The notes under the pieces are model-generated. The model was not told where the DNA came from. It worked only from the letters and a program-made list of their open reading frames with translations, and did not search any database. A DNA stretch of 24,758 nucleotides, taken from IMG/VR virus record IMGVR_UViG_3300036785_000190, positions 1 to 24,758 of that record. One strand, 5' to 3'. The position numbers were made by a program, and so were the translations under genes. Below, in pieces: positions 484 to 24,573 of this stretch (position 1 is its first letter; each line of letters begins with the position of its first letter). The DNA is from a virus.

Positions 484-735
484 TTAGCCCAGGAGTTTGT
501 TGGCGTCGAAGAAGCTCCGCACCTCGTCGGTACGGGAGTGAGCTACCGGCATGAGCTGGCCGAGAAAATGAGGGTCCTGTGGGTCGCGGGTCGAGGAGTC
601 CTTTTCCGACACGACCATGTCGTAGGTCGGGCCATGTGGCTCCTTGTTGACGTGCTGGGCGTACTCGTACCCGCCAGGACCGACGTTGGTCGGAGCTGGA
701 CTGGGTCCCCAGGTCCCTCCTCGTCCGTTAGCCAC
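484..735 (-). CDS. Unknown 83-residue phage protein
   Basis: I chose the GTG at 735, which overlaps the TAA of the upstream gene (GTGGCTAA). An upstream ATG at 798 in the same frame would only add residues that are antiphase to the neighbouring gene. The N-terminal third is Gly/Pro rich (VANGRGGTWGPSPAPT). The rest is mixed and protein-like, ending RTDEVRSFFDANKLLG, which could form a helix. No family is recognised. The coupled start suggests it is translated together with the Gly/Pro-rich protein before it. A virion-associated or accessory role is possible but unsupported. Confidence 0.55.
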   Translation of the reverse strand: MANGRGGTWGPSPAPTNVGPGGYEYAQHVNKEPHGPTYDMVVSEKDSSTRDPQDPHFLGQLMPVAHSRTDEVRSFFDANKLLG

Positions 736-1237
736 TGTACGCACCCGACTGGCCGGTCGAGAATGACCCCTGTCGGCTGGTCTGGGACGGCACAACATGA
801 CCGCCGCCCTGGGTGGGCACGGGTGACTGCTCGGGCATCTTCATCGAGGGTGACACCGTGAGACGGGCACCTGCGGACTCTGACACGCGGGTACGAGCCG
901 GGTGCGGCTCGGCCTGCACACCGGCACTCACTCCGGCGATGAAGGCGGCGTTGTCGCCAGCGAGCGGGGGGCCTCCCCCACGTCCGTAGGTGTCACTGCC
1001 GGTCTCGTAGGTATCCGGCACACCCTTGATGTGTCCAGGCGATCCCATAGAACGACCTCCTGTCGACGGGATGGACACGTTTCCTCTTGCTGTTGCTTCT
1101 GCTTGGGACAGCGCAGCCTCGTCACTGGGCGGGTAGCCACCCCAGTTCCCGGCAACCCTTTGGGCCATACCGAGGTGACTGGACGGTGCTCCCATCCGGC
1201 GGCGGATTGCGTGCCCGACGCGGCGCTGATCTGGCAT
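728..1237 (-). CDS. Gly/Ser/Pro-rich unknown protein
   Basis: This 169-residue reading frame begins with ATG at 1237, 9 nt after the stop of the RuvC-like gene, with only a weak ribosome-binding site. The sequence is low in hydrophobics and rich in Gly, Ser, Pro and Thr, with stretches such as GSDTYGRGGGPPLAG, so most of it is probably disordered. One more hydrophobic stretch (DNAAFIAGVSAGVQ, about residues 94-107) could be a short helix. No domain is recognised. It lies between the resolvase and the 83-residue gene in the same leftward series. A structural or scaffold role would fit such composition, but this is a guess. Confidence 0.5.
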   Translation of the reverse strand: MPDQRRVGHAIRRRMGAPSSHLGMAQRVAGNWGGYPPSDEAALSQAEATARGNVSIPSTGGRSMGSPGHIKGVPDTYETGSDTYGRGGGPPLAGDNAAFIAGVSAGVQAEPHPARTRVSESAGARLTVSPSMKMPEQSPVPTQGGGHVVPSQTSRQGSFSTGQSGAYSG

Positions 1238-10295: not shown

Positions 10296-10750
10296 CAGTT
10301 GACCGGCTTGTCGGCGTCGTCCAGGAGGATCAGGGAGAAGAAGATCGTCTTGGGGAACAGAAGCTGCAGATCCTCGTCGGAGAGCTTGCGGTCGTAGTAG
10401 GCAGCGTGGACCTTGCCCTCGTCCACCTGGGGCACCATCTCGACGCAGTCGTCCCAGATGCCCTTCTGGCGCAGGATGCGCTCGGCGTCGGGGTTGAGTC
10501 CGGTCCTGACGGTACGCTGGGCCTTGAGCCTGACGATCTTTCGGTCGCTAACCGGCTCCTCCAGGTCCAGAAAAAGTGACCCGGTTTCAGGGTCTGTCTC
10601 GCCGTGTCGTTGGATCATTTTTAGCAGGGCGTTCTTGCCCTCATCCAACTTCTTCGCTATGAGCTTGGATTGGAACTTGATGCCCCACCAGCTCTCAACG
10701 TCGTGGGTGAGTTCCTCTGTGTCCAGTACTTGTCGTTGCAGTCGTGCCAT
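10295..10750 (-). CDS. Conserved unknown phage protein, 151 residues
   Basis: The ATG at 10750 lacks a clear Shine-Dalgarno site and follows a 53-nt gap, one of the few gaps in this block. The sequence is soluble and mixed: LTHDVESWWGIKFQSKLIAKKLDEGKNALL is likely helical, GSLFLDLEEPV and KIVRLKAQR likely strands, and the end has LQLLFPKTIFFSLILLDD. The spacing of charged residues suggests a folded domain, but I cannot name it. It is translated with the HTH protein (one-base overlap), so a shared regulatory or replication role is plausible. Confidence 0.7.
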   Translation of the reverse strand: MARLQRQVLDTEELTHDVESWWGIKFQSKLIAKKLDEGKNALLKMIQRHGETDPETGSLFLDLEEPVSDRKIVRLKAQRTVRTGLNPDAERILRQKGIWDDCVEMVPQVDEGKVHAAYYDRKLSDEDLQLLFPKTIFFSLILLDDADKPVN

Positions 10751-10803
10751 GGAACGAGGGTACCGATTCGGTGTGACACGAATGGGCCGGTGCGGAATTT
10801 TCT

Positions 10804-11136
10804 TCAGCAGTACCGGCTGTACCGGCTGACGACGAAGGCCGGGATCCCCTCCTTGTCCGCACGCTGCAGCGTCCTCTCGGTGTCGCGGTTCTGCTGAAGC
10901 CCGTCCATGAAGGCAACGACGATGTTGGCGGCGACCCAGCTCTTGATCTTGCGGTACTGCAGGTGTCGGTAGTCCTCGACCTCACCCTGCAGGCCCAGGA
11001 TGGTCCCGTCGTCCAGAATGGTGATGACCTCGCCCCATTGGCGCGCCTCGGTGTTCAGCCCCTCCAGGATGGCGCGCAGGAGGAGCGTGTCCTGGGTGAG
11101 ACGGCTGCCACAGAAGAGGTACCGGGGACCGGTCAG
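10804..11136 (-). CDS. SLOG/DUF2493-like protein with apparent CTG start
   Basis: An open frame with strong third-position G/C bias gives 110 residues. It begins LTGPRYLFCGSRLTQDTLLL, with the CGSR nucleotide-binding loop after the first strand as in SLOG (YspA/DUF2493-like) Rossmann proteins. It continues with GEVITILDDG, YRKIKSWVAANIVVAFMDG and IPAFVVSRYSRYC. SLOG proteins sense or process nucleotide-like ligands and are found in phages and defence systems. Between the upstream in-frame stop and the CGSR strand there is no ATG, GTG or TTG. CTG at 11136 overlaps the stop of the previous gene as CTGA, in the same manner as the many ATGA/GTGA joins here, so I take it as the start. No Shine-Dalgarno site is visible. 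Confidence 0.65.
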   Translation of the reverse strand: MTGPRYLFCGSRLTQDTLLLRAILEGLNTEARQWGEVITILDDGTILGLQGEVEDYRHLQYRKIKSWVAANIVVAFMDGLQQNRDTERTLQRADKEGIPAFVVSRYSRYC

Positions 11137-11714
11137 CGTCGTGAACGTACGCGAACGATGCGTTCCTCGTATTCCGGGTGCAAGCTCTTCTCGATCCTGG
11201 CCCGGTTTTCCGCGTTAGCGGGTTCTTCTTCCTGTAGCCAGCAGTGCTTGCAGTTGCGTCGCTGCAACATCTCGTGGGTGAACAAGGGATACCAGTCATT
11301 CCATTGATGTCCGTTGGCGGCGCATTCTGCTTTGTGACGCTGGCTTTCCTCTAGGCATCGTTGCTCTTCCTCGCTCCACTCCTGGCGAAAGGTGGGCCAC
11401 CAGCGGTTGAGGATGGCAAGATTTTCTTCAGGGATTTCGTCAGGATCAGTCAAATCCAGGTCCCACAGATCGAACCGGTCACGAAGACGCTCTTCTGGAG
11501 ACTGGGCGGTAGCGGTTTTCTCGGTGTCTTCAAGATGACCCTTCAGCAAGGCGAAGTCCGTAGGTGCGCTGTATTCTCGGATCTCGTTGATAACTCCCCA
11601 GAAATCCCAGGCGTCATCTTCAGTGGGAAAGGGACCGATGATGGTTAGCGAACCAGCGTCCTTGTAGGCCCGGTCGCTGGCTGCGCCACCCCATTCGGCC
11701 AAGTAGAAGCTCAT
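11133..11714 (-). CDS. Unknown protein with C-terminal zinc-binding motif
   Basis: This 193-residue protein starts at ATG 11714, overlapping the previous stop (ATGA). The first 50 residues look like a small alpha/beta domain (MSFYLAEWGGAASDRAY, then LTIIGPFPTEDDAWDFW). The middle is very acidic and Trp-rich (DLWDLDLTDPDEIPEE, RWWPTFRQEW). Near the end, CAANGHQWNDW and RNCKHCW put Cys130, His135 and a CxxC pair in position to bind zinc. No known family. The neighbour it overlaps is the CTG-start gene, so translation of that gene may depend on ribosomes finishing this one. Confidence 0.68.
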   Translation of the reverse strand: MSFYLAEWGGAASDRAYKDAGSLTIIGPFPTEDDAWDFWGVINEIREYSAPTDFALLKGHLEDTEKTATAQSPEERLRDRFDLWDLDLTDPDEIPEENLAILNRWWPTFRQEWSEEEQRCLEESQRHKAECAANGHQWNDWYPLFTHEMLQRRNCKHCWLQEEEPANAENRARIEKSLHPEYEERIVRVRSRR

Positions 11715-13214: not shown

Positions 13215-14768
13215 TCAGACTTCGTGGGTGGCGAGGAAGGCTGAGAGGGACTGAAGATCAAGCGAGAGTCTCCCTTTTCGGGAGATTCCTTTCCCGTCGA
13301 CCACGGCATCCGCCACCTTCTGCTTTTGTGCGAGGACTCCATACTGATACTCATCGATGCTCCCTGAGACTTGTAGTGAGAGCAGTGTGACCTGGGAGAA
13401 CTCTGATGACAACCTGATGATCCGGGACTGGCGCTGGGCGTACGCTCCCGCACTCCAGGGCAGGTCGTAGCTGATCAAAAAATTCGCCTGGGGGAGGTCG
13501 AGACCGATCCCCCCGGCGTCCGATGACAGGAACAGCCGGGTCTCGGGGTCAGTGGCGAACTGTTCCTTGGCCTCATGGCGGCGCTGCTGGCTGATCGCCC
13601 CGCTGAAGATGACGCTCTTGGTCAGCGGGGCTGTGGCACTGGCGAGGAGATCGAGCATCTTCTTGAAGAAGGAGAACAGGACGACCTTGTTGGCCGGGTC
13701 GGCGTTGAGGATGTCGATGATCAACTCGACGCAGGTGGCGAGCTTGGGTGCCTTGTTCAGGGCGTCCAGGCGACCAGCAGCGTCGAGGTCTTCGGCGTAC
13801 TCGGAGCCGCCCTGACCGGCGATCTCGCCCCGGAAGAGCGCAGCCGAGTGCCGGATGAGTTCGGGGTGGTCGCACAGCATCCGCAGGTTCAGGAGCTTGG
13901 ACATGATGCGCCCTCGCATCTCGCCCTCGTCCTCGCCCCGGTAGAAGCCCGAGAGGGAGAAGTTGCCCCAGTTCCCGATGGCCTCCTCGACGTCGGTCTC
14001 CAGGTCGCGGACAGTGCTCTGGTAGACCGCCGCAGCAGCACGGTCCAGTTCGACCGGCACGACCTCCTCGGTCACGTCAGGGAGCTGGTCGGCCACCTGG
14101 GCGCGAGTGTGGCGCACCATGGACTCGGTGAGGATCCGGTGCAGAGTGGGGAGGTTCTTGTACAGCTTGACCCGGCCCCAGTGGTCCCTCGTCATGAACG
14201 CTCGGTCGAAGGTGTGGTAGTCCCCCAGAACCGAGGGGTCGACCCACTGCATGATCGAGTACACCTCTTCGGCCCGGTTCTCGACGGGCTGGCCGGTCAG
14301 TGCCCAGCGGTACTCCGCAGGTAACCGCTTGATTTTTTTCGACCGCTTGGGCCGAAAGTTTTTGAACCAGGTGGCCTCGTCGGTGACGATGTAGTCCCTC
14401 GGAAGTTTGCGGATTACCTCCCAGTCGTTGACCATCGTTTCGGGGTTCAGGATTAAGTACTCGGTCCCGCCTTCGATGTATTCGTGGTACTGGTCCTGGC
14501 GATGGAAGCCGTCGCCTGAGACGACGATTACGTTGGCCTCACCGTCGGTGAACTCCTCGATCATGCGCTTCCACTGCAGCTTGAGGCTGGCGGGGCAAAT
14601 GACAAAACCCGCAGCAATCTCCTCGGCGTCGATGAGCCGCTCGACCGCAGCGATGACCACGACGGTCTTGCCCAGGCCCATCTCCATCGCCAGGAGAATG
14701 CGACGCTGGCGGATCATCCGCTGCACTGTTTCCTCCTGGAAGTCGTAGAGCTTGCCCGAGAAGCTCAC
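13215..14768 (-). CDS. SNF2-type DNA helicase/translocase
   Basis: The 517-residue protein is a compact SNF2-family ATPase. The motifs seen are YDFQEETV (Q-like, near 8), MGLGKT (motif I, 30-35), VICPASLKLQW (Ia), TDEATWFKN (motif II, DEAT at 130-133), ALTGQPVEN (III), then in the second lobe VVLFSFFKKMLDLL (IV), SSDAGGIGLDLPQAN (V) and QRQSRIIRLSS (VI). SNF2 proteins move along double-stranded DNA and remodel bound proteins or branched structures. Phage versions sit in replication modules and may help recombination or restart. The ATG at 14768 overlaps the primase stop (ATGA). Confidence 0.93.
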   Translation of the reverse strand: MSFSGKLYDFQEETVQRMIRQRRILLAMEMGLGKTVVVIAAVERLIDAEEIAAGFVICPASLKLQWKRMIEEFTDGEANVIVVSGDGFHRQDQYHEYIEGGTEYLILNPETMVNDWEVIRKLPRDYIVTDEATWFKNFRPKRSKKIKRLPAEYRWALTGQPVENRAEEVYSIMQWVDPSVLGDYHTFDRAFMTRDHWGRVKLYKNLPTLHRILTESMVRHTRAQVADQLPDVTEEVVPVELDRAAAAVYQSTVRDLETDVEEAIGNWGNFSLSGFYRGEDEGEMRGRIMSKLLNLRMLCDHPELIRHSAALFRGEIAGQGGSEYAEDLDAAGRLDALNKAPKLATCVELIIDILNADPANKVVLFSFFKKMLDLLASATAPLTKSVIFSGAISQQRRHEAKEQFATDPETRLFLSSDAGGIGLDLPQANFLISYDLPWSAGAYAQRQSRIIRLSSEFSQVTLLSLQVSGSIDEYQYGVLAQKQKVADAVVDGKGISRKGRLSLDLQSLSAFLATHEV

Positions 14769-15652
14769 CAGAAACCTGCCAGGGTGCTGTTGTCGATGCC
14801 CTGCTTGATCTCCTCGGGCGTCAGCTCGCCGGGGTCCTTCCCCTTGGTCCCCCAGTAGTTGAAGATCCGGATCGGGATGCGGTGGTGCCAGCGTTCCCGC
14901 AGCAGTCGCCTGGTCTCATTCTGACCGGTTCGGTCGTTGTCCAGGGCGAGCACCATCTCATCGAAACGCTCGATGATCAGGCGCATCTGGAGGTCACTGA
15001 CAGCAGCCCCGAAGCTCGCGAGCGCCACGTACCCGAAGCCGTCGAGGTGTACAGCGTCGAGCGGACTCTCAACCAGGATCGGGAAAACACTGTCTGGTCG
15101 AGGTACTTGGATGCCGAAAAGGGTACGCGATTTTTTGATTCCAGGAGGGCGGTTGCGGACCCATTCCGACGTCTTCTTCTGCCAGCCCCACAGGTCACCG
15201 CTCGGCCCGTAGATGGGGAGGACCCATGCCGACTCCTCGTAGTCCCACCGCAGCTGGAACTTCTCGACCGACCATGGGTTCAGGCGGCGGTGCTTGATGG
15301 CACGCTCGGGTGGAGGCCCGTACTCAGCGAGCTGGTCCTCAAGATCGGGTGGGGGAGGCAGCCGGGTGTCCACTTCGCTGGGTTCACCCAGCTCGACATC
15401 GAAATCGCGCACCAGCTTGTGGGCGTCCCAGAGGCCCACCTTGGTCATGTCCATGATGAGCTTGGGCAACGTGCCGCTGTAGTCACAGGAGAAGCAGTGG
15501 AACACCCCGGTCTCCCGGTTGATCGACCAGTGGCGGGGGCGCTGTTCACGCTCCCCCGTGCGCTTCTCGTGCATGGGACACCGTCCCGCGATCTCCACGT
15601 CTCCGGGCCGGACGTCTTCGACACCGATGTGAGCCAGCAGGTCTTCGATCAT
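14765..15652 (-). CDS. dnaG: DnaG-like primase
   Basis: The 295-residue protein joins an N-terminal zinc-binding domain (Cys25-Pro-Met-His28 and Cys53-Phe-Ser-Cys56) to a TOPRIM core: VESPLDAVHL (Glu195), LASFGA, LALDNDRTGQN (Asp238, Asp240) and GKDPGEL. Primases make short RNA starters for the polymerase. It is about half the length of bacterial DnaG, lacking the C-terminal helicase-binding domain, which is common for phage versions. It is joined by ATGA to the DnaB-like helicase before it and by ATGA to the SNF2 gene after it, so primase and helicase are made together. Confidence 0.92.
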   Translation of the reverse strand: MIEDLLAHIGVEDVRPGDVEIAGRCPMHEKRTGEREQRPRHWSINRETGVFHCFSCDYSGTLPKLIMDMTKVGLWDAHKLVRDFDVELGEPSEVDTRLPPPPDLEDQLAEYGPPPERAIKHRRLNPWSVEKFQLRWDYEESAWVLPIYGPSGDLWGWQKKTSEWVRNRPPGIKKSRTLFGIQVPRPDSVFPILVESPLDAVHLDGFGYVALASFGAAVSDLQMRLIIERFDEMVLALDNDRTGQNETRRLLRERWHHRIPIRIFNYWGTKGKDPGELTPEEIKQGIDNSTLAGFW

Positions 15653-19428: not shown

Positions 19429-19452
19429 ATCCTGGGGATAATCCTGTGGATT
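19429..19452 (+). repeat. Tandem 12-bp repeat upstream of terminase
   Basis: ATCCTGGGGATA and ATCCTGTGGATT follow each other directly, matching at 10 of 12 positions. Each unit is itself a small palindrome (ATCC, three bases, GGAT). T's continue to 19456. The first unit also holds GATAAT across its end, which resembles a -10 box. This looks like two operator half-sites ahead of the rightward genes. Confidence 0.45.
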
Positions 19453-19511
19453 TTTTGTGGAGCTTGCGACATACCAGGTGCCTGTCCAGGGCGGTTGGGT
19501 ACTCTGGGCGC

Positions 19512-21161
19512 ATGACGTACGTGGATGACCCGACTTTGGAGGGCGACGAGCCGCCCCCCGACGAGCCAGACGACCTCTCCAGTGATCTGGACCAGTTCGC
19601 CCCCGTCGTCCTCGATCCCGCCGACCAGCAGTTCGTCAACAGGCTTGTGGATAAGGTGTGGGAATTCACCGTGATCCTCTCCGGTGTGGATATGTTCCCG
19701 TACCAGGCGGCACTCGGGCATCGGATCATCGAGTCGGTTATTTCCGGAGATGGGGCCACCATTACCGGCGAGCTTTCACGTCAAAGCGGCAAGACCGAAG
19801 TGGTGGCAAATGTCGCCGCCAGCCTCATGATTCTCCTGCCCAGGCTGGCCGAAATGTTCCCCGAGTTTGAGCCTCTTCAGAAGTTCGCCAAGGGCGTCAT
19901 GATCGGCTGCTTTGCCCCGGTCGAGCAGCAGGTCGAGACCCTCTTTGGTCGTGTGGTGGATCGTCTCACCTCGGAGCGCGCCCAGGAGATGCTGGAGGAT
20001 CCCGACATCGATGACACTGTGCGCCCCGGCTCGCGCAAAGTTCGGTTGAAGAAGTGCCAGAGCTTCTGCGCCATGCAGACGGCGAACCCGAGAGCGAAGA
20101 TCGAGTCGAAGAGCTACCACGTCATCTTCGTGGACGAGTCCCAGTCGGTGGATGAGTACGTGCTCAACAAGTCGATCACCCCGATGGGTGCGTTCTACCT
20201 CGCCACCATGTGCATGACCGGCACTCCCGACATCGTGAAGGGCGTGTTCTACAAGACCATCCAGCACAACAAGCGCATGGAGCTGCGCCGGGGCGGCAAG
20301 AAGAACCACTTCCGCTTCGACTGGAAGTACTGCGCCCGGTTCAACCGCAACTACGCCGCCTACATCCGGGGCGAGGCGATGCGGATCGGAGAGGACTCCG
20401 ACGAGTTCCGGCTCAACTACAAGCTGGAATGGCTCCTGGAGCGGGGCATGCTCATCACCGAGTCCCGGCTGGACGAGCTGGGCGACACCACCATGCCCAT
20501 CGTCCCGGCGTACTGGCGCAGCCCGCTCATCGGCGGCATCGACTTCGCCCGCAAGATGGACTCGACCGTTGCCACCGTGCTCTGGGTGGACTGGGACCGT
20601 CCCGACGAGCTGGGCCTGTACGACCACCGGATCCTCAACTGGCTGGAGATGCACGGCGAGGAATGGGAGGAGCAGTATTTCCGACTGGTCGACTTCTTCT
20701 CCAACTACTCAGTCGTGGCGATTGGTGTGGACGCCCAGGGCATCGGGGATGTCGCCGCCGACCGACTCAAGCGGCTCCTCCCCAACATCCAGGTCGAGCC
20801 GCTGTCCTCCCAGATCGCAGAGCAGTCGCTCCGGTGGAAGCACCTCCAGGCTCTACTCCAACGTGGGCTGCTCTCCTGGCCCGCCCACCCCAAGGCGCGG
20901 AGGACCAAGACCTGGAAGCGGTTCCGCCAGCAGATGATCGACGTGGAGAAGAAGTACCAGGGGGCGCACCTTCTGGTCGAGGCCCCCGACGAGGCCGGGG
21001 TCCACGACGACTACGTGGACTCGCTGGCCTGTGCGGTGATCATGAGCAAGCAGATGATGGTGCCCGAGATCGAGGTTCAGACGACGCCCTGGGCCTCAAC
21101 GCCCAGGGTTACCCGAGAGCGCCGTGCAGGACGTCAGCGAGCGGGTTCAGGACGTCGGTGA
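19512..21161 (+). CDS. terL: Terminase large subunit
   Basis: The ATG at 19512 (MTYVDDPTLEG) is preferred over an in-frame start at 19446 that runs through the tandem repeats; the ribosome-binding site is weak. The ATPase domain has Walker A SRQSGKT (89-95), Walker B VIFVDESQS (204-212) and coupling motif TGTP (236-239). The nuclease domain has GGIDFARKMD (Asp344), IGVDAQG (Asp407) and HDDYVDSLACA (Asp500, Asp503). Terminase pumps DNA into the prohead and cuts it. In the plain frame the protein ends at 549 residues with an Arg-rich tail of poor codon bias. The +1 frame after codon 531 has excellent bias and ends at 21213, so the functional protein is probably 566 residues. No small subunit is visible. 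Confidence 0.93.
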   Translation: MTYVDDPTLEGDEPPPDEPDDLSSDLDQFAPVVLDPADQQFVNRLVDKVWEFTVILSGVDMFPYQAALGHRIIESVISGDGATITGELSRQSGKTEVVANVAASLMILLPRLAEMFPEFEPLQKFAKGVMIGCFAPVEQQVETLFGRVVDRLTSERAQEMLEDPDIDDTVRPGSRKVRLKKCQSFCAMQTANPRAKIESKSYHVIFVDESQSVDEYVLNKSITPMGAFYLATMCMTGTPDIVKGVFYKTIQHNKRMELRRGGKKNHFRFDWKYCARFNRNYAAYIRGEAMRIGEDSDEFRLNYKLEWLLERGMLITESRLDELGDTTMPIVPAYWRSPLIGGIDFARKMDSTVATVLWVDWDRPDELGLYDHRILNWLEMHGEEWEEQYFRLVDFFSNYSVVAIGVDAQGIGDVAADRLKRLLPNIQVEPLSSQIAEQSLRWKHLQALLQRGLLSWPAHPKARRTKTWKRFRQQMIDVEKKYQGAHLLVEAPDEAGVHDDYVDSLACAVIMSKQMMVPEIEVQTTPWASTPRVTRERRAGRQRAGSGRR

Positions 21162-21417: not shown

Positions 21418-21819
21418 ATGGGACTTGCCCCCGACCCGATGTTCCCTGAGAAGGGTGCATACGCCTACGACATGACGCCGGGTCCGAACAGCCCCGGCGG
21501 TCGCGGACCTCTGCGCTTTGAAGAGGGGATGGCGACCGACACCGACGTCCCCAACGACTTCACGCGGGGGATGACCGAGTTCATGGTCTCGGCACCTGGC
21601 CGGATCAACCACGTCGACCCGAACACCCAGTTCAAAATGCCCGAGGAGACCATGGCAGAGCGCGCCCACGTCGGCTCATCCGCCTGGATCGACGCCCCCA
21701 CCATGCTCGGTGAGTTCGCCCACGGCAGCTTCACCGACCAGGCCGAGGTGCGCTACGAAGAGGTGATCCGCAACGGGGCCATCCAGAAGAGGCGCTCACC
21801 TGAAGTCGTCTCCGACTGA
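21418..21819 (+). CDS. Unknown protein, first gene after terminase
   Basis: The ATG at 21418 follows AAGGAG by about 6 nt, a strong site. The 133-residue protein begins MGLAPDPMFPEKGAYAYDMT with Pro/Gly-rich turns. It continues with TDVPNDFTRGMTEFMVSAPG and NTQFKMPEETMAERAHVGSS, and ends in the helix-like QAEVRYEEVIRNGAIQKRRS. No domain is recognised. Position after terminase and high Pro/Gly content fit a small virion or head-assembly protein, which is inference. Confidence 0.75.
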   Translation: MGLAPDPMFPEKGAYAYDMTPGPNSPGGRGPLRFEEGMATDTDVPNDFTRGMTEFMVSAPGRINHVDPNTQFKMPEETMAERAHVGSSAWIDAPTMLGEFAHGSFTDQAEVRYEEVIRNGAIQKRRSPEVVSD

Positions 21820-21821
21820 CC

Positions 21822-22070
21822 ATGGCGACTGATGTCGCGGCGTCACTACGGCGTGGGCGTATGGCGGTCGGTCGGCACCTCATGGAGGGACACGGCTTCA
21901 CCAAGAGCGAGTTCGGTATGTTCGGTGACAATCCCTCGCAGCAGATGCTGGAGGGGGCGCACGAGCAGGAGCACGAGTACAACCAGGAGGCGCTGAGTCA
22001 CACGCATGAGCTGTTCCACGACCGGCGCAGTGAGGGACGCAGGCACGGCCCGAGAGTGGTGCACCTGTGA
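21822..22070 (+). CDS. Small protein ending in the FHDRRxEGRR motif
   Basis: The ATG at 21822 comes 2 nt after the previous stop. The 82-residue protein is basic at the start (SLRRGRMAVGRHLMEGHG), has an acidic, His-rich middle (EGAHEQEHEYNQEALSHTHE) and ends LFHDRRSEGRRHGPRVVHL. The last part repeats at the start of the next gene and at the end of the one after. The middle is likely helical. No family is known; the terminal motif may bind a shared partner. Confidence 0.75.
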   Translation: MATDVAASLRRGRMAVGRHLMEGHGFTKSEFGMFGDNPSQQMLEGAHEQEHEYNQEALSHTHELFHDRRSEGRRHGPRVVHL

Positions 22071-22294
22071 TATTCCACGACCGGCGTGACGAGGGGCGGC
22101 GACGCAGTCCGATGTATTTCGGCCATGGTGACAGGTTGCCGCAGAAGGAACAGGACCAGCTCTACGCAGAGAAGCTGGCCGAGTCAGGTCGGGACCCCGA
22201 GTACGAGCACGCTGAGTGGGCCGACAAGATGATGCGCGCTCAGGACGCCGAAGAAGGCGGGCTTGAGCAACACCGTGGGATGCCGAGGTACTGA
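22067..22294 (+). CDS. Small protein starting with the FHDRRxEGRR motif
   Basis: The GTG at 22067 overlaps the previous stop (GTGA). The 75-residue product starts MIFHDRRDEGRRRSPMYFGH and continues with a charged helix (KEQDQLYAEKLAESGRDPEY, HAEWADKMMRAQDAEEGG), ending EQHRGMPRY. Its motif lies 60 bp after the copy in the previous gene. The proteins may have arisen by local duplication. The function is unknown. Confidence 0.75.
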   Translation: MIFHDRRDEGRRRSPMYFGHGDRLPQKEQDQLYAEKLAESGRDPEYEHAEWADKMMRAQDAEEGGLEQHRGMPRY

Positions 22295-22674
22295 TGGCGA
22301 AGAAGACAGCAGTAGACGCCCCTGACCCTGATGAGTGGAAGCACACGCACTACTACGACCCGGCCCCCATTGATCGGTACGACGCGCGTCCTCATCCGGG
22401 GAGTAGCGCCATTGCGCCGGGGTCCCCGGTGCAGAAGATGAAGTGGAAGATGGGTCCGGGTCGCAGTACCGGTGGTGCGTTCGCCCACATTCGGGATCAG
22501 TACGGAAACAACCAGTCGGTCTTCAAGACCGCTCTGGCATCCAAGAAGGGGTTTCAGTCCAAGATGTCTGACGCGCAGGGTCAGGCATCGAGTGGGTGGG
22601 GAGGACCGGAGCCGAAGTATCCGGGGTACTTCCATGATCGGCGTGAAGAGGGTCGAAGGGACAGGCCGATCTGA
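22294..22674 (+). CDS. Basic protein ending in the FHDRRxEGRR motif
   Basis: The ATG at 22294 overlaps the previous stop (TGATG). The 126-residue protein begins MAKKTAVDAPDPDEWKHTHY, contains KMKWKMGPGRSTGGAFAHIR and NQSVFKTALASKKGFQSKMS, and ends YPGYFHDRREEGRRDRPI. Its first 15 nt around the start (CTGATGGCGAAGAAG) are identical to those of the next gene. It is Gly, Lys and Ser rich and probably partly disordered. No family is recognised. Confidence 0.75.
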   Translation: MAKKTAVDAPDPDEWKHTHYYDPAPIDRYDARPHPGSSAIAPGSPVQKMKWKMGPGRSTGGAFAHIRDQYGNNQSVFKTALASKKGFQSKMSDAQGQASSGWGGPEPKYPGYFHDRREEGRRDRPI

Positions 22675-24335
22675 TGGCGAAGAAGCGCCCTGGTGCACCT
22701 GAAGGCCGTGCCGTCCAGATGGAAGACCTCGATCCTCAAGGTCGTCGCGCCGCTCGTGAGAACTGGGCGCAGATGGGCATGGTCAAGTCCCGTCATGGTG
22801 AAGCGTTAGCGGCGGCACAGCAGGCTCAGGCCACTACTACCAACCCCGAGTACGTCAAGAAGATGGGTCACCGGATCTCGACCCTCAAGGCTGTTGAGCC
22901 TCACCTAGAGGACAAGCCCATGACCGAACGGGGCGCAGCCGCAGAGCGGGTCAAGTACATCGAGGCTGGTGCGAAGCGCGCACGGGAGCATGGGCCAGAA
23001 GAGGGTGGCCTGGGCGGTGCCGATTTCTACTTCGACCATCACAACTTGATCCGAGAAGCGGGACGGGCGACCGGCTTCACCCCCCACGAGGCGATCACTG
23101 GGACGACGTCGATGAGTCCGCTCAATGCCCCGACGACAGAGCGGGCTGCTGGGCGTGCGGCCATGAAGCTCGTGGGAGAACCAGGCCATACGGTCGAGAT
23201 GACTCCAGAGCTGCACAAGGCCGCGACCGGGGTGCTTAAGGGGACCATGAAATCGATGAACCCCCCTCCTCTCCCCAAGGAGACCGTCGGTCAGACCGTG
23301 AAGGTCGAAGATCTCCATCACACGCACGTCGCCGCCCTGGGGGCTGTCAACGCACCGATGCGGAAGAAGGGTCAGCCGATCCAGTCGAGTGCTCCTGAGG
23401 CGTTTACCGCCATGGGGGCCACCCGTTTGTCCCCAGAGATTGCTCGCTCTATCGGTCACCTTCGTGGTCATATTCCAGAGGAGGATGTCATCGCTCCTGG
23501 GGGTGCGCCCAAGGTCCACACATACAAGGAGACCACCAAGGCACACGTCCCAAACACACCGGAGCACGGCGAGTTCGGCGTCCGGCTGCACCACTACATT
23601 CACGGTGACCCCAAGCAGCATGTGATGGACCTGTTCGGCCTTCGTCACTCCCAAAAAGGTGTGCTGAGTTCGGACGCACCCACGGTTGAGGACACCTGGA
23701 TGAACGCGATCTCCACCCGCCAGGTCCCGACGAACATCGGTGGTGGTGGGCGTGGTGTCAGCGTGGCGAAGACGGCGGGCACCGACCCCAAGCTCGCCGG
23801 GGCCGACGCCATGCGGAAGGCGTCTCCCACATCGGAGGCGACGGTGGCCGACGATCCAGGCATCACCGCCACCGGTCTTGTCCACGCCCTCAACTCCTCG
23901 GCCAGCCGGATGGCGGCGAAGAAGATCAAGATCCAGATGGGTGACGAGACCACCAACCTGCCGTCGGTGGCCGGTCATGCCATGGCCTGGACCGAGATTC
24001 GCCGCCAGGCTGACAAGGACCCCGAGTACAAAGCTGCCCAGGAGGCGAAGCAGGACGTCGCCGGTCGCCAGTTCAAGGCCCCCAGGAATCAGCCGAAGCT
24101 GGGGAAGGAGAGGACGGCCACTGCAGTGAAGCAGACGCCTGTGCCCTCTTCTGTCAGGCAGCCGGTTGGTCCTGCGATGAAGAAGCAGCGGCGTCAGCGT
24201 GCTCGCGCTGCCAAAAATGCGCCCGCTTCCGCACCTGAAGCTGCCTCGGCAGCGGCACCCTACGTGCCTCCTTCCACTCCCGCTGGTCCGGTCATGACTG
24301 AGTTCAGAAGAAAGCGAGCGGCTGCAAATGGCTGA
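22674..24335 (+). CDS. Large enzyme-like phage protein (DUF7178-like region)
   Basis: The ATG at 22674 overlaps the previous stop. The 553-residue protein has a charged first 85 residues, then a folded region: YFDHHNLIREAGRATGFTPH, ITGTTSMSPLNAPTTERAAG and AMKLVGEP. After a gap comes FGVRLHHYIHGDPKQHVMDL, and PTVEDTWMNAISTRQ. The order (aromatic/IRxxA helix, S-MSP-N loop, GD-x-V-x-D, then PTVEDxW) resembles a phage family I remember as DUF7178, which itself looks like helix-hairpin glycosylase folds; that link is from memory. A Thr/Ala section and a long Lys/Pro/Ala-rich disordered tail (after about 440) follow. It may be a virion-borne enzyme. The position among small structural-type genes supports this. 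Confidence 0.7.
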   Translation: MAKKRPGAPEGRAVQMEDLDPQGRRAARENWAQMGMVKSRHGEALAAAQQAQATTTNPEYVKKMGHRISTLKAVEPHLEDKPMTERGAAAERVKYIEAGAKRAREHGPEEGGLGGADFYFDHHNLIREAGRATGFTPHEAITGTTSMSPLNAPTTERAAGRAAMKLVGEPGHTVEMTPELHKAATGVLKGTMKSMNPPPLPKETVGQTVKVEDLHHTHVAALGAVNAPMRKKGQPIQSSAPEAFTAMGATRLSPEIARSIGHLRGHIPEEDVIAPGGAPKVHTYKETTKAHVPNTPEHGEFGVRLHHYIHGDPKQHVMDLFGLRHSQKGVLSSDAPTVEDTWMNAISTRQVPTNIGGGGRGVSVAKTAGTDPKLAGADAMRKASPTSEATVADDPGITATGLVHALNSSASRMAAKKIKIQMGDETTNLPSVAGHAMAWTEIRRQADKDPEYKAAQEAKQDVAGRQFKAPRNQPKLGKERTATAVKQTPVPSSVRQPVGPAMKKQRRQRARAAKNAPASAPEAASAAAPYVPPSTPAGPVMTEFRRKRAAANG

Positions 24336-24573
24336 CAACTACATCCAGAACGTCCCGGTCCCTTACATGGACATCCAGACCTTGTGGAGCGACCGGCGTG
24401 AGCCGCACGCCAACCCGCTGTCATCAGGATCGTCAGGTCGCCGGATGGTGGCGCGGACCAGCCCCAGCACCCTTGGTAAGTCCATCGAGGGCCTCTACCA
24501 CCCTGGTGTTTTTGCCGAGAGGGCGTCGGCTCCGATCACGAAGAAGAGGCTGTACGGAGATCAGAAGAAATGA
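24328..24573 (+). CDS. Small unknown protein
   Basis: The ATG at 24328 overlaps the end of the large gene by 8 nt and follows AGCGAGCGG, a weak site. The 81-residue protein starts MADNYIQNVPVPYMDIQTLW and continues SDRREPHANPLSSG, a faint echo of the DRR motif in the preceding small proteins. It has a Ser/Arg-rich middle and ends ITKKRLYGDQKK. It appears to be a small accessory virion or assembly protein by context only. Confidence 0.7.
   Translation: MADNYIQNVPVPYMDIQTLWSDRREPHANPLSSGSSGRRMVARTSPSTLGKSIEGLYHPGVFAERASAPITKKRLYGDQKK

Follow-up and report, generated by a model that had tools for sequence, protein, structure and literature searches.

Three consecutive small proteins encoded in the window (the whole DNA stretch analysed, a linear IMG/VR virus record of 24,758 bases with 62% G+C) carried the peptide FHDRRxEGRR near a chain end, and the broader form F[HN]DRR recurred at the ends of many otherwise dissimilar proteins in related phages. 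The combined results provide strong evidence for a portable docking motif at chain ends on which selection acts at the level of the peptide. The window comes from an uncultured virus related to Streptomyces phage BRock. The features relevant to the tag, all on the + strand, are the following.

19446-21161 (+), terL, terminase large subunit (PHROG E 8e-25; Pfam Terminase_6C; ∼50% identity to the BRock terminase)
21418-21819 (+), 133-aa protein of the BRock gp155 family (alignment A1, related loci, BRock synteny)
21822-22070 (+), 82-aa small protein with the tag near its C-terminus (ORF)
22014-22043 (+), tag copy 1, FHDRRSEGRR, in frame in the 82-aa ORF
22067-22294 (+), 75-aa small protein with an N-terminal tag, MIFHDRRDEGRR (ORF)
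22073-22102 (+), tag copy 2, FHDRRDEGRR, in frame in the 75-aa ORF
22294-22674 (+), 126-aa small protein with the C-terminal tag FHDRREEGRRDRPI-stop (homologues in L028 and L084/L054)
22630-22659 (+), tag copy 3, FHDRREEGRR, in frame in the 126-aa ORF
22674-24335 (+), DUF7178-related protein of 553 aa, product of the large gene in the tagged cassette (iterated profile search)
24328-24573 (+), 81-aa protein with the N-proximal tag variant DIQTLWSDRREPHANPLS (nine-member alignment A2)
24385-24408 (+), tag variant WSDRREPH, within the 81-aa protein (homologue alignment)

The three copies had been reported from the sequence-only reading, and searching the entire record for HDRRxEGR recovered exactly these, all on the + strand, with no matches on the reverse strand or for the backward control; the ten-residue motif was confined to three of the window's ORFs and was in frame in each. 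The tag-bearing ORFs of 82, 75, and 126 aa are tightly coupled, with the GTG start of the 75-aa gene overlapping the stop of the 82-aa gene, and they lie immediately 3' of the untagged gp155-family gene, which is kept in at least 594 IMG/VR stretches. The earlier placement of the tags at chain ends was correct in that all are near an end and copies 2 and 3 are terminal, but the tags are not the first or last residues: HGPRVVHL (8 residues) follows copy 1, MI precedes copy 2, and DRPI follows copy 3. The fainter fourth copy that had been proposed, WSDRREPH, is real, as the 81-aa family reads W[NS]DRRDPH and D-R-R-x-P-H is invariant in the nine-member alignment. Mimicry of the capsid N-arm by the QTLWS segment of this 81-aa protein was considered and dropped, the capsids of tagged relatives reading QVIWS or QTIWS.

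No convincing match to the window's small proteins was found in Pfam or PHROGs. The body of the 82-aa protein has no relatives among the tagged proteins; the 126-aa protein has a homologue in L028 (53% identical, with the same tag) and distant homologues in L084/L054 that end in FNDRR/IHDRR. Searches of cultured phages for homologues of the 126-aa protein, for a 20-aa form of the tag, and for a 94-aa N-tagged family yielded none. The contig terminates in a perfect 19-bp inverted repeat (24673-24691/24740-24758, with 48 nt between the arms). This may be a hairpin arising from assembly or amplification, so that the last ORF at this end is possibly chimeric.

Recurrence and conservation of the tag

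A degenerate-codon scan of 2.9 million viral IMG/VR contigs located the ten-residue motif in 15 stretches, of which 13 are genuine small ORFs with the motif near a chain end, often several per contig; the reversed peptide gave four scattered single matches in the same scan. The remaining two matches (L005 and L013) arose by chance, being out of frame or reflecting Ser codons caught by the degenerate pattern. The core F[HN]DRR matched 41 times in 30 whole related records versus twice for the backward control. For all loci pooled, 45 matches were obtained against 0.58 for permutations, an enrichment that is partly biased because the motif served to fetch some of the loci. When the loci were fetched independently of the motif, using the gp155 family as the sole bait, F[HN]DRR was present 20 times in non-redundant ORFs, whereas 59 permutations of its residues averaged 0.25. 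In these more distant phages, F[HN]DRR again lies at an end of the product of the gene adjoining the gp155 family, with N-terminal forms MVAFHDRRR, MVAFNDRRR, MVDFHDRRR, and MVDFNDRR and C-terminal forms SVFNDRRGS and GIFTDRRM; tag peptides written out are MVAFHDRRRAP and FHDRREEGRRDRP. One tagged phage found with this bait sits in Terracoccus sp. 273MFTsu3.1 (L116; also L086). The viruses that carry the tag form a widespread uncultivated group, mostly from soil, that infects bacteria.

The C-terminal tag of the window's clade often takes the strict form FHDRRxEGRR[DE]RPx-stop, beginning 14 residues before the end, and the N-terminal tag reads FHDRRxEGRRxAP, from 1 to ∼20 residues past the start. 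The expectation that the motif is terminal in related phages was borne out, with 18 of the 20 F[HN]DRR copies in the loci fetched by the gp155 bait at most 20 residues from an end. The 19 ten-residue copies are encoded by 19 distinct DNA sequences, and nine positions are invariant in amino acid despite varying codons (position 6 holds nine different residues), in support of the reported drift of the DNA under a retained peptide. The 97-aa family likewise keeps MVxFxDRRR in members that are 33 to 38% identical to the first sequence. On these patterns of variation, there is strong evidence that selection on the tag acts at the level of the peptide.

Bodies and predicted structure of tagged proteins

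With the tag removed, the tagged proteins fell into ∼25 groups lacking detectable similarity at the cut-off used, the grouping also leaving a few single entries that resemble chance. Profile comparison of two C-tagged families aligned only the 17 tag columns and not the bodies. Homology joins the 126-aa family to that of L084/L054 along the length of the proteins, and therefore the diversity is partly one locus diverging and the truly independent families number fewer than 25. Two cases show the modularity of the tag directly: the DUF7178 protein of L031 is longer than four homologues by a 48-aa extension bearing the tag, and two tandem N-tagged genes in L029 (11048-11556, − strand) have a first part in common at the DNA level, with mainly synonymous changes, and unrelated bodies beyond the tag segment. 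The large DUF7178-like protein of L049 has a C-terminal tag that its homologues lack. Such comparisons indicate that tags are acquired as extensions or duplicated onto different bodies.

AlphaFold2 models of two tagged proteins assigned low confidence to the tag region. In the 97-aa family, the first nine residues had pLDDT values <50, with most blocks of the body >80, and residues 1-61 of a tagged DUF7178 protein had values of ∼30, with a core mostly >80; the tag is thus predicted to be disordered outside the folded body in both proteins modelled. The concerns raised along with the initial observation, that the motif might belong to an ordinary folded domain in relatives or be missing from all related phages, were not borne out: it lies outside the folded domain in these two models and is present in many related phages. 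Fold comparison gave no significant match for the 97-aa body in the PDB and BFVD or for the DUF7178 model in the PDB, leaving a DNA-glycosylase fold for the latter unsupported. A DUF7178 homologue is named "glycosylase" in one Streptomyces phage record.

Two readings of the peptide bear directly on these properties. It is very improbable that the repeats lack a tag function, whether as remnants of recombination, as a nucleic-acid element, or as part of ordinary folded domains; adjacent copies can come from duplication, as in L029, but this reading is already contradicted by the almost wholly synonymous variation over the 19 copies, the position of the motif outside the folded part of the models, and the presence of copies on unrelated bodies in distant phages. 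Recognition of the tag by a phage or host enzyme that processes, degrades, or modifies proteins (e.g., a protease or an arginine-modifying enzyme) would agree with the short, arginine-rich, terminal, and disordered nature of the peptide; we nevertheless consider this improbable, as the tag works at either chain end, the conservation of nine of ten positions in the window's clade exceeds that of most degrons, and no candidate enzyme was seen.

Genomic setting and candidate functions

The gene order common to the related contigs is terL, the gp155 family, one or more C-tagged small genes, a variable large gene, the 81-aa family, a short basic protein, one or more N-tagged genes, portal, scaffold, and capsid. 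Most tagged clades have a tagged gene immediately 3' of the gp155-family gene, within this terL-portal-scaffold-capsid operon, and the window's clade has a second one immediately 5' of the portal gene. The tagged bodies differ strongly among close relatives, with 0 to 5 per genome. Streptomyces phage BRock and its relatives (Borockvirus) share the order of terL, gp155 family, portal, scaffold, and capsid with the window's group, terL being ∼50% and the major capsid protein 67 to 70% identical; the window record itself contains only terL and the gp155 family of this backbone. In contrast to the window's group, BRock and three relatives possess neither tagged proteins nor a DUF7178-like protein in their four genomes; FHDRR matched the DNA of BRock-type genomes twice, either antisense to the annotated genes or, judging the frame by the coordinates, outside the reading frame of a minor tail gene.

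The location near terL anticipated from the sequence alone holds for many tagged genes but not for all. A tagged zinc-ribbon protein is encoded directly downstream of DNA polymerase in a replication operon, and a tagged basic 54-aa protein is encoded near an endolysin-like gene in a late cassette, beside a DUF7178-like gene; such neighbors do not compel a purely head-linked interpretation. A second conserved cassette recurs in distant phages (L167 7520-11463; L157 13258-16669) and comprises a PSAEYPDGYLGT protein, a DUF7178-like protein, a DGVYDHTKPW protein, a small tagged basic protein, and a GHAxRRRMGAP protein. The left end of the window (728-1237, − strand) corresponds to one gene of this second cassette. 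On another contig, L030, which lacks terL-region homologues, two tagged genes (10630-11172 and 14587-14820, − strand) are clustered with genes for a ParB/VapB-like protein and for two large proteins that have no match.

We conclude that F[H/N]DRR, or FHDRRxEGRR in the window's clade, is very probably a functional docking motif of some kind. We infer that the tagged proteins bind one common partner and, more weakly, that this partner is the prohead and the proteins are packaged. According to this proposal, the tag would be a short linear motif on the flexible N- or C-terminal tail of many small, fast-changing phage proteins. Exposed there, it would bind a single phage component, the likeliest being the prohead (through its scaffold, major capsid protein, or portal vertex), and the proteins so recruited would enter the particle as cargo and later be ejected into the host. 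Assignment of the tag as a capsid-targeting or cargo-loading signal is tentative, with a chance somewhat short of even. The more encompassing version, in which a large group of phages, actinobacterial and environmental, would use F[HN]DRR as a universal, end-independent label for packing interchangeable small and DUF7178 proteins into the capsid and injecting them, presumably against host defences, is possible but doubtful. Loading is favored because the late head operon is the main home of the tagged genes, the bodies are variable, and the T4 internal proteins and encapsulins offer parallels. Against it stand the tagged genes outside the head operon beside DNA polymerase and endolysin, the linkage of neither a cleavage motif nor a prohead protease to the tag, with none noticed in the head operon, and the BRock-type phages, which have homologous portal, scaffold, and capsid without the tag, so that the partner surface there must differ or stay unused.

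The same head-operon setting could alternatively indicate that the tagged proteins are structural accessories fixed by the tag at the head-tail vertex or head exterior (portal, connector, or decoration), as virion parts that are not injected. The fixed site between the gp155-family gene and the portal gene, the N-tagged gene that several members of the window's clade have directly 5' of the portal gene, and the small folded bodies such as the 97-aa family are consistent with such a role, but the number and sequence of the bodies vary among close relatives, unlike essential connector parts, and some tagged genes reside in replication or lysis regions. We regard this anchoring role as unlikely.

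The copies in the replication operon and the link to DUF7178 proteins favor a different partner, an in-cell phage complex (e.g., the DUF7178-like protein or the replication machinery) on which the tag would dock small accessory proteins that act during infection and are not packaged. The 553-aa protein of the window was joined to PF23802-positive relatives by iterated profile search (E 2e-4) and has no direct match to DUF7178 (PF23802), falling below the Pfam cut-off. Together, three DUF7178-superfamily models matched 13 tagged records but no BRock-type genome out of four; among the tagged records without a match, G021 and G026 are shorter fragments. DUF7178-like genes neighbor tagged ones in the terL-portal interval as well as in the second cassette, and tagged zinc-ribbon genes adjoin DNA polymerase. 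In addition, many large DUF7178-like proteins end in Q..LF-stop (QGRLF, QQRLF, QQKLF, or QQGSLF), as listed below.

L025, 12415-13959, protein ending in Q..LF
L028, 16795-18174, protein ending in Q..LF
L041, 6395-7930, protein ending in Q..LF
L043, 6796-8046, protein ending in Q..LF
L157, 14854-16110, protein ending in Q..LF

We take these ends to resemble bacterial sliding-clamp binding motifs, which would suit an in-cell role. The tag itself was also considered as a sliding-clamp motif and dropped, the conserved upstream Q being absent. Docking within the cell is, however, rather unlikely in our estimation: two DUF7178-like proteins (L031 and L049) are themselves tagged, which fits fellow cargo better than a receptor; the models match one record without F[HN]DRR (G022) and miss the divergent large gene of a tagged record (G001); and most tagged genes are housed in late head operons.

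Returning to capsid loading, three known systems provide comparisons. The internal proteins IPI-IPIII of phage T4 have one short conserved terminal peptide (CTS) on highly diverse small proteins (PMC3012670), a pattern that the ∼25 body families also display; the CTS is N-terminal and tied to the T4 scaffold core, whereas F[HN]DRR occurs at either end, has no known cleavage, and is a putative packaging signal. In phage P1, an N-terminal peptide steers DarB and a reporter into the capsid (PMC9024508). The present tag is similarly a terminal peptide of phage proteins, but the P1 Dar proteins lack a common consensus (PMC9024508), whereas the consensus here is nearly invariant. Encapsulin cargo loading peptides are found at either end of the cargo, with the genes beside an HK97-fold shell gene (PMC7355545); here, too, a short tag lies at the N- or C-terminus of unrelated proteins whose genes, with exceptions located elsewhere, are near a shell gene. 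The tag sequence is unlike those peptides, however, and an encapsulin shell is not a phage particle; the neighboring shell gene encodes a phage major capsid protein in a full terL-portal-scaffold operon, and loading is proposed here by analogy. We do not claim membership of the tag among capsid targeting sequences; its mode of action resembles known kinds. In agreement with the sequence-only reading, which knew of no system with this tag, open-access papers yielded no description of the motif, of DUF7178 function, or of the virion content of these phages, and nothing relevant under Borockvirus, DUF7178, or the HDRR string.

Should the tag serve for loading or docking, it would allow dozens of small phage proteins without annotation, mostly termed "hypothetical," to be recognized as one functional class. 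The cargo of tailed phages beyond T4 and P1 would then be testable by motif search and virion proteomics, and proteins could be loaded into actinophage capsids by means of a short peptide. As a separate observation, a contig from a Chloroflexi MAG (PCAM01000041.1, L120 3929-5879) has a gp155-family gene followed directly by a homologue of the window's 553-aa protein, placing this gene pair outside the Actinobacteria.
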